Source: Tissierellia bacterium (GTDB lineage: Bacteria; Bacillota; Clostridia; Tissierellales; Tepidimicrobiaceae). Taken from it: 64,000 bases of DNA. The position numbers were made by a program, and so were the translations under genes. Positions 10,438-59,073 of this stretch are shown here, in pieces. Each line of letters opens with the position of its first letter. The first letter of the stretch is position 1. A model generated the notes under the pieces. The model did not search any database and was not told where the DNA came from. It saw only the letters and a program-made list of their open reading frames with translations. The stretch lies in assembly GCA_012839745.1 (NCBI GenBank), contig DUMS01000086.1:62001-126000 (forward strand), read 5' to 3'.

Positions 10438-12474
10438 TTATAACCCATTTATTTCTCTGTCCACCATTGCAATTACATTATATCCCTTTTCTGTAAGATG
10501 GCTGCCTCCTCTGCCAGGCTTGGACTCTATTAAGCCCATGGATTGGGCCAGGTTTAATATATTCCTTATCTGCCCTTCCGTTAAATCAATATTCTCCTCT
10601 TCTGCACATTTTGCCAGGTATCGCCTGCCAATTCCATCTGAATTCTTCATCTTGCCAAGAACCCATATCATATCCTTTCCAAGAACATCTATTATCACTG
10701 AGTTCTGAGGGCTATGAACATAATCAGCAATATAATCGGGAAGCTCATTTTTCTGTATTTTTTTACCTGGCTTTGCTAAGCTTATTATATATTCAATGGC
10801 ATTTTCCAGCTGTCTTACATTGCCTGGCCAGTCATATTCATACAATTCCCTTATTGCATCTTCTTCCAATATATCCTCCAAGCTTACGGACCTGCCATTG
10901 CTGTACTTTTCTATGAAATAATTTGCTAAAAGGGGTATATCAGACTTCCTTTCCCTAAGGCTTGGAACCTTAATGGGTAATACGTTTAGCCTGTAATATA
11001 AATCGGATCTGAATTTGCCTCTCTTCACTTCTTCTGCCAAATTTTTATTTGTTGCAGCTATTATCCTAACATCTACAGGTATCTCCATAAGGCCCCCAAT
11101 TCTCCTTATTTGCCTTTCCTGGATTACCCTTAGCAAAGTACACTGGAATTCCAAAGATGCATCTCCTATTTCATCAAGAAATATGGTACCGCCATGAGCC
11201 TGCTCAAATAAGCCTATTTTCCCGCCTTTTAATGCTCCGGTGAAAGAACCCTCTTCATACCCAAACAGTTCAGACTCTATCAGGTTCATGTTGAGGGAAG
11301 CAAAGTTAACAGGTACAAAAGGCCCTTTTGCCCTTTTGGATAAGGAATGAATGGTCTGTGCAATAAGCTCCTTGCCTGTCCCGCTTTCTCCCTGTATTAA
11401 TATTGTGGAATCGGTATTTGCAAAGGCTTTTACCTTTTCCATAAACTTTTTCATGTTTTCACTTTTATATATGATATCATCTACAGTATAATAGTTGCCC
11501 TTTATGGCCATATAAGAAGCCCTTCTGCGAATTTCATGCTCGTTTTTCTGGATGTCCTCGCTTTTTTCAAATATATATATCTTTCCTTCTTCAATGCCTT
11601 TGCCTTCTACTACGTTTTGAGTAACAAACAGCTCCTTTCCCTTAATCTTGATGATATCAGATTTGCTTGTTTTATCTATCTTTGCCAGTACAGGAAGTAC
11701 GTCCTTTATATCCCTGCCTATTATATCCTCTTCCTTGCAGCTTAAAAGGTCAGTCATCATGTTGTTTACAAGCAAAACGTTTCCTTCCTTGTTTACATAT
11801 ATTATTGCCTTAGATATGCAATTTGCAACTGTCTGCAGCCTATTGCTTAGTATCCTGGTCTCCTTTGCAACATCGCTAATTCTATTTAACAGCCCAACTA
11901 TTTCATGAATGTAGTGGGAAGACAGGCTGTCCCCTATAACATCCATTAGCCCCAACCTATGAGCTATATCTATTAATGTGGTAACATCAAACTGTCGTGT
12001 GCCTATATCTATTACCCTCTTCACCCTATAGGGCACTAGATGAGGCTCACCTACCGTTACAGCAATATCCAGCTTTGGATAGGAAATCATGCCCGGATAA
12101 TATGGGTAGTATTTAATGTTGTTGACTCCCAGGGCTTGTAATTGGGATATTGCAAGGAATGTAGTTTCCTTCCTGTCGTTAACCAGCAGCACTTCAGTAG
12201 CTTTAGGCAAGTTCAGCAGTTCACCAATATATCTATGATTAATCACCCTTCTGGCCAGTATATAATCCATGCCTTTATCCATGAGAAGCTTAATTCTATC
12301 ATCTATTGCTTCCCGGGAGGATATGACAACAAGAGAATTTGAAATGTCAAAATTAAATTCATCCTCCAGGCAGTAAGCGCTTATTTCCGAATATTCCCCA
12401 AAAAACTTCTCAAGCTGCATAGCCAGATTAATGGCTGTTGTTCTTCCAGGGCTAATTACTATTAGCTTTTTCAT
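10438..12474 (-). CDS. sigma-54-dependent transcriptional activator with PAS domain and winged-helix C-terminus
   Basis: A 678-residue enhancer-binding protein. Residues 1-190 form an unclassified sensory region; a PAS-like domain follows (about 210-310, with AIIYVNKEGNVLLVNN). The AAA+ core (about 335-570) has Walker A GESGTGKE, the sigma-54 contact loop GSFTGA (usually GAFTGA), Walker B GGTIFLDEIGD and WPGNVRQLENA. The C-terminus is not the usual Fis helix-turn-helix but looks like a winged helix (IGRRYLAKCAEE and LIESKPGRGGSHLTEKG). The start ATG has GAGGTG upstream. It lies directly upstream of a consensus sigma-54 promoter driving the racemase operon, its most likely target. Confidence 0.9.
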   Translation of the reverse strand: MKKLIVISPGRTTAINLAMQLEKFFGEYSEISAYCLEDEFNFDISNSLVVISSREAIDDRIKLLMDKGMDYILARRVINHRYIGELLNLPKATEVLLVNDRKETTFLAISQLQALGVNNIKYYPYYPGMISYPKLDIAVTVGEPHLVPYRVKRVIDIGTRQFDVTTLIDIAHRLGLMDVIGDSLSSHYIHEIVGLLNRISDVAKETRILSNRLQTVANCISKAIIYVNKEGNVLLVNNMMTDLLSCKEEDIIGRDIKDVLPVLAKIDKTSKSDIIKIKGKELFVTQNVVEGKGIEEGKIYIFEKSEDIQKNEHEIRRRASYMAIKGNYYTVDDIIYKSENMKKFMEKVKAFANTDSTILIQGESGTGKELIAQTIHSLSKRAKGPFVPVNFASLNMNLIESELFGYEEGSFTGALKGGKIGLFEQAHGGTIFLDEIGDASLEFQCTLLRVIQERQIRRIGGLMEIPVDVRIIAATNKNLAEEVKRGKFRSDLYYRLNVLPIKVPSLRERKSDIPLLANYFIEKYSNGRSVSLEDILEEDAIRELYEYDWPGNVRQLENAIEYIISLAKPGKKIQKNELPDYIADYVHSPQNSVIIDVLGKDMIWVLGKMKNSDGIGRRYLAKCAEEENIDLTEGQIRNILNLAQSMGLIESKPGRGGSHLTEKGYNVIAMVDREINGL

Positions 12475-54264: not shown

Positions 54265-55698
54265 CTATTCCCTTAATTTTTTATCGCTTGACACCACTTC
54301 GGCTATGAAGTAGGAAAACAGTCTTGTTGAAAGAATCATATTATCAAATTTTGCTTTTTCATTGATTTCATGGCAAGTATCTTCCTCATCCGGAAATACT
54401 GGTCCCCAGCATACACAGTTTGGCAATGCCTTTGCATATGAGGTTCCATACTCCAAATTATAATAGCTTGTCCAGGGGGTATTTTCATTGTATATTCTTT
54501 CCATCAGCTTAACAAAGGGCTTATTGCTGTCTACGTATATGGCATCCATATATTCTACAATTTCAACTGTATACCCATAAATATGCCTGTACTTTGCAAA
54601 TCCTTTTTCAACATCTTCCCTATGAACTCCATAGGTCTGCCTGATATTATAATACAGCCTGTATCCGTCCTTTTCCGTTCTCATCATTGTAACAGACATT
54701 ACAGTTTTGTGCATATCTTCTCCATTTACATATACATTTCCCTTTGCCAGCCCAAAAGGTGCACCTTCAAAATCACCTGCTGCAATTTCATTTATGAATT
54801 TCACAACATAATATGCGCCATTATCCATCAAGTCCAGTTCCTTTAGAAAATCTGCCAGTATCCATATGGCATTGACTCCTTTTTCCGGATAGCATGAATG
54901 GGCTGCAGCCCCTTTTGCCTTTATGACTGTAAGATCATCTTCTACTTCAATTGATAATTCCTTATCCGGATTTCTATTTAAATAATCAGATAGTCTCTTT
55001 GCTATTTCCTCCTTGTTTCCTCTCAGTATGGCTGATGCCACATCTGGTATGCTGTTTACTGCAGTGCCTCCATTAAGGTCTGTAATTTCTATGGTTCCTC
55101 TTTCCCCTTCTTTTCTACCAAATTTAAGCACAATATCTGCATATCCCTTTTCCCTGTTTCCTATTGGAAATTCTCCATCCGGGGTAAAGGAAAAATCAGG
55201 AAGCCTGCAATTTGCCACATATGCCTCTATATCCTTCCATTTAACTTCCTCCTGTGTCCCAATTATAAGCTGTACCTTTTTGTGCATGTTAATTCCAAGT
55301 TCCTTTACTGCCATCATGGCATATAAAGTGCATAGAAGAGGCCCTTTGTCATCCTGGCTTCCCCTGCCCCATATATATCCATCTGCCAGTGTAGCCCTGT
55401 ATGGAGGATACTTCCATTCCGATTTGTCCCCCGGGTCTACCACATCTACATGAGCCAGAATCCCTAAAGTTTCGTCTCCTTCTCCCATTTCCACTATTCC
55501 TATCTGGTCATTTAATATTGTTTCTGCCTTTAGGCCATATCCTTTTGCCTTCTCTATACACAAGCGCAAAGCTCTTTTAACTTCATCAATATCCTCTGAC
55601 ACACTGGGTACTGACATTAAATCATCCAGATCCCTTAAAAACAAATCCTTGCGCTCGTAAATAAACCTGTCAATTGCTTCTTTATAATCCCTATACAT
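54265..55698 (-). CDS. M20 family dipeptidase (PepV/Sapep-like)
   Basis: A 477-residue di-zinc peptidase. Metal ligands are in ILAHVDVVDPGD (His) and GRGSQDDKGPLL (bridging Asp), the catalytic Glu pair in IGTQEEVKWKDI and a further Asp in FTPDGEFPIGNREKG; AYNIRQTYG-like and AKALPNCVCWGPVFP segments complete the site. Length and motifs match PepV-type Xaa-dipeptidases. It hydrolyses dipeptides in the cytoplasm for fermentation. I choose the ATG at 55698, 9 bases after AGGAGG, over the TTG used in the track. The next genes upstream are also M20 peptidases and a YfcC transporter. Confidence 0.9.
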   Translation of the reverse strand: MYRDYKEAIDRFIYERKDLFLRDLDDLMSVPSVSEDIDEVKRALRLCIEKAKGYGLKAETILNDQIGIVEMGEGDETLGILAHVDVVDPGDKSEWKYPPYRATLADGYIWGRGSQDDKGPLLCTLYAMMAVKELGINMHKKVQLIIGTQEEVKWKDIEAYVANCRLPDFSFTPDGEFPIGNREKGYADIVLKFGRKEGERGTIEITDLNGGTAVNSIPDVASAILRGNKEEIAKRLSDYLNRNPDKELSIEVEDDLTVIKAKGAAAHSCYPEKGVNAIWILADFLKELDLMDNGAYYVVKFINEIAAGDFEGAPFGLAKGNVYVNGEDMHKTVMSVTMMRTEKDGYRLYYNIRQTYGVHREDVEKGFAKYRHIYGYTVEIVEYMDAIYVDSNKPFVKLMERIYNENTPWTSYYNLEYGTSYAKALPNCVCWGPVFPDEEDTCHEINEKAKFDNMILSTRLFSYFIAEVVSSDKKLRE

Positions 55699-55854
55699 CT
55701 TCAAATACCTCCTTTTACAAAGAAACAGCTAAAATATGCCTACCTTATCAAACACTCATTTCAATCTTACCTTTCTATCATCCCCTAATTTTTATGTTTT
55801 GAGGCTATTAACCTGTGTAATTTTTCACACTTATGTTAGCACAATAATAGCAAT

Positions 55855-55936
55855 AAATCCAGTTTTTTACTGGATTTAAACTGTACAATAAAAAACTTCC
55901 CTATCCAGTAAACTTACCAGATAAGGAAGCTTTTTC
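55855..55936 (-). terminator. terminator hairpins after the yfcC remnant
   Basis: Two hairpins lie in the gap. The first, with AAAAACTTCC paired to GGAAGcTTTTT and inner TATC/GATA and GTAA/TTAC pairs, spans 55890-55936 and is a good terminator. The second, AAATCCAGT-TTTTT-ACTGGATTT, spans 55855-55877. Nothing else is visible between the remnant and the dipeptidase gene. Confidence 0.72.
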
Positions 55937-55942
55937 ACTATA

Positions 55943-56463
55943 TTAAAATGGTCCAAGCTTCATCAAGTGAGCTATAAGCACAAACACTGCACCTACTAGA
56001 TACTGAATCAAAGCTAATTTTACAAACCATTTGGCCCATTTTTCCCATGGAATCTTTGCTAAAGCCAAACCTGCCATAAAATATCCTGAAGTTGGTGTAA
56101 GTACATTTGAAATTCCATCACCTAATTGGAAGGCAAGAACTGCAGTCTGTCTGGTTATACCTGTCAAGTCAGCCATTCCCTTAACTAACTGCTCTCCAAA
56201 ACCATTAAGACCTAATCCAGCTATTAAAGATACAACAATTGCCATTCCCAAAAATAATGCAGATATCTCCATTATATACCATCCAAATTTTATTACTCCA
56301 ACAACAAGCATTACAATTGTTAGTGCTACAGCTATCAAAACAAGTTTATCGTTTAATGTAAGCTCTCTGATTTTATTCAAATCTAAAGTATCATCTCTAG
56401 TTTTGTCAAACTCATACATATTGCTTATTTCTGGATTTGCTTTCACCTTATTTGCATATCTAT
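55943..56463 (-). pseudogene. C-terminal remnant of a YfcC-family transporter
   Basis: About 170 residues match only the last third of YfcC/DcuC-like carriers (about 470-500 residues): an RYANKVKANPEISNMYE linker, then four or five hydrophobic segments with DLTGITRQTAVLAFQLGDGISNVLTPTSGYFMAGLALAKIPW, the conserved C-terminal signature. The frame is open further upstream but enters a TA-dinucleotide tract and then peptidase sequence, so the first two-thirds are missing. No ribosome site fits an internal start. Intact relatives import peptides or C4 acids next to M20 peptidases, as here. It is either a deletion remnant or an assembly join. Confidence 0.8.
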
Positions 56464-57506
56464 ATGTATATATATATATATATAATCTCAGGGCTTTTAC
56501 CCCATACTCCTTCTGTCATGTCTCTGGTAATACTAACTATTGGATGTTTTACATCAGTTTCCATAGCCTCATGTACATAGCCTTCCTTCATAACGCTTTC
56601 ATCCATTACCTTTATATAACATGTAAAATCCTTATCCTCATTAGATAATTCATCTATAATACTTTGATATTGCTTTATTACATCTGAATATTTTACTCCA
56701 GGAACCCATCTTCTATCAATTTTTAAAGTGCACTCTCCTGCAACAGTACTAGGCTGAGTACCCCCCATTATAGTTCCGTAATTCATAGATGATTTCCCAA
56801 TAAGAGGATGGGTTTCCATATTTATTTTAGGCATCAGTTTTTCCTCTACCCTCTGAATAAAATTAGAAGCCTTGAGAATAGCATTTATGCCTTTATCCTG
56901 ATTTCCACCATGTACAGCTTTCCCTATAAATTGAAGTTCAAACCACTCCAACCCTCTGTGAGCAACACATATATCCAAATTTGAAGGCTCTCCTACTATA
57001 GCTGCATCTGCCTTGATTCCTCTTTCTATTAGATCTATGGTTCCCAGACTTTTTTCTTCCTCATCAATTACTCCGGCAAATAACAAGTCTCCATTCAATT
57101 TTATATTTGCCCTTTTTATTGCAACAAGGCTATAGGCCATACATGCCAAAGGCCCTTTCATATCCACTACACCACGGCCATAAAGTTTACCTTCTTTTAT
57201 CTTAAGGCAATATGGGTCGTCCATATCGTAAGGTGGCACAGTATCAGTATGCCCTGTTAATAAAAGGGATTTACCTTCTCCACTTCCCTTTAACCTGGCA
57301 ATTACATTGAACCTGCCATCAGCTACATGAACCAATTCCGAATCAATTCCCTCTTTTTGAAAAAAATTATGAATATATTTGGCTACACCAGTTTCCTGAT
57401 TTTCTATACCCCTATGGCTGGATATAATGACAAGATTCCCTATTATGGATATTACTTCCTCTTCAGCAACTACAGATTTCAACCTGTTTAATATATCTGA
57501 ATTCAT
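56460..57506 (-). CDS. M20 peptidase (ArgE/DapE type), C-terminally truncated
   Basis: A 348-residue peptidase/deacetylase-like protein. It has LLTGHTDTVPPYD and GRGVVDMKGPLACM (metal site), VIDEEEKSLGT (catalytic Glu) and the dimerisation domain with GKAVHGGNQDKGINAI. The last natural residues are GVWGKSPEI, after which the frame runs into IYIYIYI encoded by a TA repeat and stops. Relatives continue about 60-70 residues with the final metal His (often PGxxxxAHxxDE), so the zinc site is incomplete and the enzyme is probably inactive as shown. I use the ATG at 57506, 7 bases after AGGAAG. Confidence 0.8.
   Translation of the reverse strand: MNSDILNRLKSVVAEEEVISIIGNLVIISSHRGIENQETGVAKYIHNFFQKEGIDSELVHVADGRFNVIARLKGSGEGKSLLLTGHTDTVPPYDMDDPYCLKIKEGKLYGRGVVDMKGPLACMAYSLVAIKRANIKLNGDLLFAGVIDEEEKSLGTIDLIERGIKADAAIVGEPSNLDICVAHRGLEWFELQFIGKAVHGGNQDKGINAILKASNFIQRVEEKLMPKINMETHPLIGKSSMNYGTIMGGTQPSTVAGECTLKIDRRWVPGVKYSDVIKQYQSIIDELSNEDKDFTCYIKVMDESVMKEGYVHEAMETDVKHPIVSITRDMTEGVWGKSPEIIYIYIYI
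56461..56484. repeat. TA-dinucleotide tract at a gene-fusion junction
   Basis: An almost pure TA tract (one G interrupts it) of about 24 bases joins the end of the truncated M20 gene to the truncated yfcC. It is the likely breakpoint of a deletion or of an assembly misjoin. Confidence 0.85.
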
Positions 57507-57591
57507 AAGATTACTTCCTTTCATGAGACAAGCAGAACTGCTTTGTCTGTATTGTTAATTATGATGTTTTATTTGGATTTAAGGCAAAAAA

Positions 57592-58761
57592 TTATTTGTC
57601 TTTACAGGTTTCAAACTCCTCTTTGATTTTTTTCAACAGTTCTTCATCCATTATTACATCTGCTGCTGTCAATACCAGTGCTGCAATAGTCTTTTTCATG
57701 CTATCATGGGCTTCTTCAGTTAATGTTGCCTCAGCCAATTCCTTTGTATGGGCAGCTATGCCTGAGCCTCTACATATGCCAAAATAAGGATGGATGGCAG
57801 GACATACATGGCTTACATTTCCCATATCTATGGAGCCAAAGGTTTCTCTGATATTTTCACAATCTTCAACGCCCAAGCCCTTTAAATGCTCATTATACCT
57901 CTTTGATAATGTTTCATTGGTAACCATGTTGTCATAGGATGCTTCAAAATTAGAAATTTCCAATTCAGTTCCAGTAGCAATGCTTGCTCCTCTTGCACAG
58001 TTCTTCACTTTTTCACTTAATTCCATCAGATATTTCTTGGTAGTTGCCCTAATGTAGAATCGTGCTACAGCTAAATCAGGAACCACATTGGGAGCTTTTC
58101 CTCCTTCAACAATTATTCCATGAACTCTGGCAGATGGCAATATATGCTGTCTTAATGCGTTTATGGCATTAAATGTCAAAATAACCCCATCTAGTGCATT
58201 TATACCTTTTTCCGGAGATGAAGCTGCATGGGCGGTTTTTCCCCTGAATGTAAACTCAACTGCCTCTAAGGCCAAAGAAGCACCGCTTTGATAGAATTCT
58301 GCATCCGGATGGGCCAGCATGGCTATATCTACATCGTCAAAGGCTCTTTTTGCTACCATCTCCACCTTTGCGCCACTGGTTTCTTCAGCAGGTGTACCAA
58401 AGACTACTACCCTACCTCCTATTTCATCTACAAGCTTGCTCAATACAATGCCTGCACCTGTACTAACAGTTCCTAGAAGATTATGTCCACAGCCATGGCC
58501 TATACCTGGCAATGCATCATATTCTGCCAGATATGCAATTGTAGGTCCATCCTTTTCACCCTTGTATTCTGCCCTAAATGCAGTTTCCATACCTAAGTAG
58601 CACTCTTCTACTTTGAAATTATGCTTCTTTAAAAGGTTGATATGGGCTTTGGATGATTTGTACTCTTCATAGCCCAATTCAGGGTTTTCATAGATATACT
58701 TGCTGAGCTGTATCAATTCATCCTTTACTTCTTCTATTAAATGCAAAACCTTTTCCTTCAC
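57592..58761 (-). CDS. M20D amidohydrolase (aminobenzoyl-glutamate hydrolase/ACY1L2-like)
   Basis: A 389-residue M20D-type peptidase. YIYENPELGYEEYKSS is the family opening, IAYLAEYDALPGIGHGCGHNLLGT has the metal ligands, GTPAEETSGAKVEM the catalytic Glu, FRGKTAHAASSPEKGINALDG the dimerisation-domain His, and the closing Gly-His region is GSGIAAHTKELAEAT. Relatives cleave N-acyl amino acids or small peptides, such as p-aminobenzoyl-glutamate by AbgB. I choose the GTG at 58761 (GGAGGTG upstream). It heads a short operon with the truncated M20 gene and yfcC, driven by a promoter at 58945. Confidence 0.88.
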   Translation of the reverse strand: MKEKVLHLIEEVKDELIQLSKYIYENPELGYEEYKSSKAHINLLKKHNFKVEECYLGMETAFRAEYKGEKDGPTIAYLAEYDALPGIGHGCGHNLLGTVSTGAGIVLSKLVDEIGGRVVVFGTPAEETSGAKVEMVAKRAFDDVDIAMLAHPDAEFYQSGASLALEAVEFTFRGKTAHAASSPEKGINALDGVILTFNAINALRQHILPSARVHGIIVEGGKAPNVVPDLAVARFYIRATTKKYLMELSEKVKNCARGASIATGTELEISNFEASYDNMVTNETLSKRYNEHLKGLGVEDCENIRETFGSIDMGNVSHVCPAIHPYFGICRGSGIAAHTKELAEATLTEEAHDSMKKTIAALVLTAADVIMDEELLKKIKEEFETCKDK

Positions 58762-58944
58762 ATTAACACCTCCATCTGGTTTTTTCTTTCTAAAAATAAA
58801 AAAGCTTTTCTTCATTTTTCTTCAAGTTTAACTACAAGCACATAATCTGTACCCTTTCCTCTGTTGTGCATCACCTCGATACATTTAGCTATAGTTATGT
58901 TTATATACTTATTACTTTAACATAGAATTTATGTCTTAATATAT

Positions 58945-58972: not shown

Positions 58973-59044
58973 TTATTGCCTTAATTTATTGAATTTTGAA
59001 CTATTAGACTCCTTCTCCCAAATTGCTGAATAAGACAAATAAAT

Positions 59045-59071
59045 AAGACAAAAGAACCGTCCCCTTGTCTT
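59045..59071. repeat. REP-like palindrome AAGACAA...GAACCGTCCCC...TTGTCTT
   Basis: 7-bp inverted arms AAGACAA/TTGTCTT enclose AAGAACCGTCCCC, and a partial copy AAGACAAAT lies 14 bases upstream. From memory, the GGGGACGGTTCT core recurs in intergenic repeats of many Firmicutes, sometimes near REP-associated transposases. The 58762-59121 gap otherwise holds only a promoter and a terminator. Confidence 0.55.
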
Positions 59072-59073
59072 AA

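Follow-up and report, generated by a model that had tools for sequence, protein, structure and literature searches.

Bacterial pseudogenes that arise by short-homology (slippage-type) deletion are recognised by homologies of a few bases at their junctions, the absence of essential segments, remnants that can still be identified and paralogs elsewhere in the genome. The same features occur together at a locus in a Tissierellia bacterium, where a gene for an M20 peptidase and a gene for a YfcC/DcuC-family transporter, both incomplete, meet in a TA tract. We analysed this locus within a stretch of 64,000 nucleotides (the window). What sets it apart from pseudogenes of this type is a junction containing the assembly's longest TA microsatellite. 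We consider it probable, at roughly 80%, that the segment is a recently formed pseudogene pair that arose through two deletions, with a TA tract that grew at one of the junctions. Searches of the literature on short-repeat deletions in pseudogenes and on YfcC/M20 operons turned up nothing specific. The process is ordinary gene decay and pseudogene formation, which is already known, and not a new kind of system.

The gene pair and its intact orthologs

The peptidase open reading frame (ORF; 56460-57524, minus strand, 354 aa) and the transporter ORF (55943-56446, minus strand, 167 aa) meet in the TA tract. Both truncations are real in the assembled sequence, as the initial annotation had described. 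The locus comprises the following features.

55885..55940, minus strand: strong hairpin with a T run behind it, which is probably the operon's intrinsic terminator and is undamaged (-25.9 kcal/mol, z -7.9)
55943..56461, minus strand: 3' remnant of the YfcC/DcuC-family transporter gene, with the native C-terminus and stop codon kept
56160..56180, minus strand: approximate junction left by deletion B, which takes out 77 codons (231 bp) in frame; GGAATGGCTGACTTGACAGG joins GMA codons to DLTG codons with GCT in common
56456..56489, minus strand: breakpoint region of deletion A; GAGATTA is the peptidase side and TATAGATATGCA the transporter side, from DNA comparison with L066, L059, L105 and L073
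56467..56484, no strand assigned: (TA)9 repeat lying at the junction of deletion A; no other run in the assembly reaches seven TA units
56485..57524, minus strand: 5' remnant of the M20 deacylase/peptidase gene (ArgE/DapE type), which runs from codon 1 as far as codon ~347 and lacks the C-terminal ~53-56 codons
57592..58815, minus strand: upstream M20 amidohydrolase gene (TIGR01891), intact; the same neighbour is present in G057 at 68% identity

The terminator-like hairpin lies directly 3' of the transporter stop codon. Within 54265-58815 of the window, the transporter remnant lies amid three close M20-family genes, which are the amidohydrolase, the truncated ArgE/DapE deacylase and a PepV/Sapep dipeptidase. 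Upstream of the amidohydrolase gene is a second hairpin, TAAGACAAGGGGACGGTTCTTTTGTCTTA (59044-59072, minus strand). This hairpin looks like a dispersed REP-like element because its core, AAGGGGACGGTTCT, has nine copies in the assembly, including four on the window's contig, and none when read backwards.

At least 12 genomes of the same order carry an intact peptidase gene followed by the transporter gene, adjacent on the same strand and 22-172 bases apart (collinear pairs in L066, L105/L060, L073, L106, L107, L108, L068, L109, L110, L071, L138 and L142). These orthologs contain the segments missing from the window, in the same order and on the same strand. Comparison with intact pairs from related genomes had been suggested at the outset, and it was this set of about a dozen that revealed two deletions. 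The initial annotation had also named the occurrence of the same short genes in relatives as evidence against truncation; none turned up when 249 genomes of the order were searched at the DNA level.

The relatives' pairs are free of stop codons except for one in L066, and that of L059 contains an N gap. An apparent frameshift in the L059 transporter was rejected as a mutation and attributed to the N gap in that record. The stop in L066, the closest relative (same contig as L140), is an in-frame TAA at 1840-1842, near codon 255 of the orthologous transporter ORF (LDLD*IREVTN). Either the transporter was lost independently in L066, or this metagenome-derived genome contains a sequencing error at that position.

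Two deletions and the TA tract

The peptidase remnant matches the ArgE/DapE deacylase model TIGR01910 (E 1.5e-66) and, at 225.1 bits, passes the curated cut-off of 217.6 bits. Like deacylases of this type, it keeps the dimerisation domain and the N-terminal part of the metal-binding domain. Unlike them, it has lost its last ~53-56 residues, among them the AHS motif, and it does not contain a complete catalytic domain, the profile match covering model positions 2-326 of 373. The loss had initially been put at 60-70 residues, a figure that the full-length orthologs (~401-432 aa, 58-74% identical to the remnant) revise downwards. These orthologs continue with ITYF[PT]AWSDGG...ETAHS where the remnant ends in IIYIYIYI, a tail that is a translation of the TA tract and had been called artefactual. 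The ETAHS in the lost part aligns with the conserved His that solved ArgE/DapE enzymes carry close to their C-terminus; we take this His to be the last metal ligand of the M20 family. Because the lost tail holds this His, the truncated peptidase should be dead as an enzyme, judging from its sequence.

The transporter remnant is interrupted as well as shortened. A profile search of the whole genome matched PF03606 (DcuC) to it in two separated stretches (211-317 and 387-460 of 461), and the YfcC model PRK11588 matches at 128.8 bits, below its curated cut-off of 500 and not over the full length. The remnant's residues 1-96 correspond to 252-347 in the L105 ORF and its residues 91-167 to 419-495; therefore, 77 codons are missing in frame. 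Compared with intact members of the YfcC/DcuC family, the remnant keeps segments matching the L105 ORF at ~247-345 and from ~422 to the native C-terminus with 70-80% identity, but lacks the N-terminal ~220 residues and the internal 77-residue block. Identity to the orthologs as a whole varies from 43 to 90% by segment. The total loss, ~300 of ~470 residues, agrees with the initial estimate, which had wrongly placed it in a single block at the N-terminus. In the intact gene, the GTG that serves as the 'start' of this ORF encodes an internal valine (KVKANPE). With more than half of its length lost, the transporter should be nonfunctional. Together, the ETAHS region and the ~300 transporter residues are segments that the two products would be predicted to need.

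Alignment and DNA comparison place the junction of deletion B at GGAATGGCTGACTTGACAGG. In the L105 gene the corresponding sequence is GGAATGGCTAATATGGCAGG, and CCCTTAGCTGATTTGACAGG lies 231 bp beyond it; homology at the cut amounts to ~3 bases (GCT). Deletion A removes ~857-923 bp between peptidase codon 347 and the IIYVYRYA segment of the transporter, the distance between matching breakpoint words being 857 bp in L066, 875 bp in L059 and 923 bp in L105. The peptidase-side breakpoint reads GAGATTACATATTTTCCAGCATGG in L073 and the transporter-side breakpoint reads ACAATTATATATGTATACAGATATGCC in L059 and ACAATTATTTATGTATATAGATATGCA in L066; the window has GAGATTATATATATATATATATACATATAGATATGCA at the junction. 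The two breakpoint regions in the relatives' intact pairs have short ATTA/ATAT words in common, which bears out the earlier proposal of a deletion between TA-rich sites for this junction. That proposal invoked one deletion of ~1.2 kb for both truncations, and here the orthologs disagree, showing two separated losses of ~0.86-0.92 kb and 231 bp. Its sum was nearly right because deletions A and B total ~1.1 kb.

The tract itself had been described as about 24 bases of TA repeat. It is present, and its pure run is (TA)9, 18 bases, within a longer A/T stretch. When the 2.17-Mb assembly was scanned for TA repeats, this run was the only one with at least seven units, and two others had six; the window's dinucleotide frequencies predict ~0.002 runs of nine units. 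A TA-rich segment is already present on the transporter side of the breakpoint in relatives, and the tract probably grew out of it. By frame arithmetic, the peptidase and transporter frames would be continuous without the extra TA units, and they are discontinuous with the present 22-base spacer.

We take both deletions to be present in the DNA itself as well as in its assembly, and propose that the ancestor carried a co-directional operon of an M20 deacylase/peptidase gene followed by a YfcC-type transporter gene, as relatives still do. A short-homology deletion of ~0.9 kb, of the replication-slippage type, would have brought together two similar TA-rich words, ATTA.ATAT near peptidase codon 347 and its counterpart in the transporter's IIYVYRYA codons. 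The short TA run left by this join, no longer under selection, would have gained about five units to become (TA)9. Between two GCT words, another deletion would have taken 231 bp, or 77 codons, from the transporter gene.

Alternatives to a pseudogene pair

A local assembly error is the alternative that survives best, though we regard it as unlikely. The organism would then have an intact pair, and the assembler would have left out ~0.9 kb lying between TA-rich words and, in a separate error, 231 bp. The assembly is indeed fragmented (89 contigs, 86% complete) and a low-complexity TA tract lies right at the junction, but the assembly has no other TA run of at least seven units with which to mis-pair, and the breakpoint sites in relatives have only a few bases in common, fewer than usual assembly words. 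Deletion B, with its ~3 bases of homology, would require one gene to have been affected twice, and assemblers do not usually fail in this way. The remnants are free of decay beyond the deletions, and an intact operon with an artefact would show the same codon constraint; the excluded sequence, however, is on no other contig. Searches of the assembly for the missing halves, using ortholog transporter and peptidase C-terminus queries, gave only paralogs of 34-48% identity, against the ~70-80% expected. The misjoin at a repeat that the initial annotation had offered as a second explanation fares poorly on these same points and on the collinear gene order.

We find it very improbable that the short genes are native and working, perhaps as one fused ORF whose frame depends on TA copy number in the manner of a phase-variable switch. 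At certain other copy numbers, among them that of the proposed unexpanded join, the two frames would run on into each other, but they do not join at the copy number assembled. Codon constraint is kept in the remnants, but a fused product would lack most of the transporter and, from the deacylase, the C-terminal catalytic segment. Nor does the transporter remnant have a credible start site, and the 249 genomes searched contained no relative with a short form. We give scarcely any credence to the expanded tract acting as a slippage switch that joins and separates a peptidase-transporter fusion ORF to make a phase-variable hybrid product.

A misjoin of two distant loci is barely conceivable: a simple repeat is located at the join, but the complementary halves are missing from the assembly and the order, adjacency and co-direction of the genes recur in a dozen relatives, with which the window is collinear, which speaks against a join of distant loci.

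Age of the damage and remaining paralogs

Returning to the pseudogene pair, we asked how old the damage might be. Changes at positions invariant in other orthologs number 2 of 109 in the peptidase and 0 of 49 in the transporter, no more than in intact orthologs, and divergence of the remnants is concentrated at third codon positions. The remnants show no relaxation of codon constraint, which in young pseudogenes is a supporting but not a required feature. Because this constraint is still normal, the damage appears recent relative to the split from the compared relatives; under an assembly error, it would be absent from the DNA.

The genome retains five full-length YfcC/DcuC paralogs, one of which, on contig 56, has an intact related peptidase next to it. 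Since these relatives remain, redundancy is plausible and loss of the window copy may be tolerated. On contig 33 of this genome (G000, 10948-11586), a weak DcuC-like match with two in-frame TAA codons is perhaps another decayed transporter gene.

For annotation, neither ORF should be named a functional short peptidase or transporter. The locus also cautions that a summed loss can conceal two separate events, and it offers a neat example of a genome's longest TA microsatellite lying at a deletion junction.
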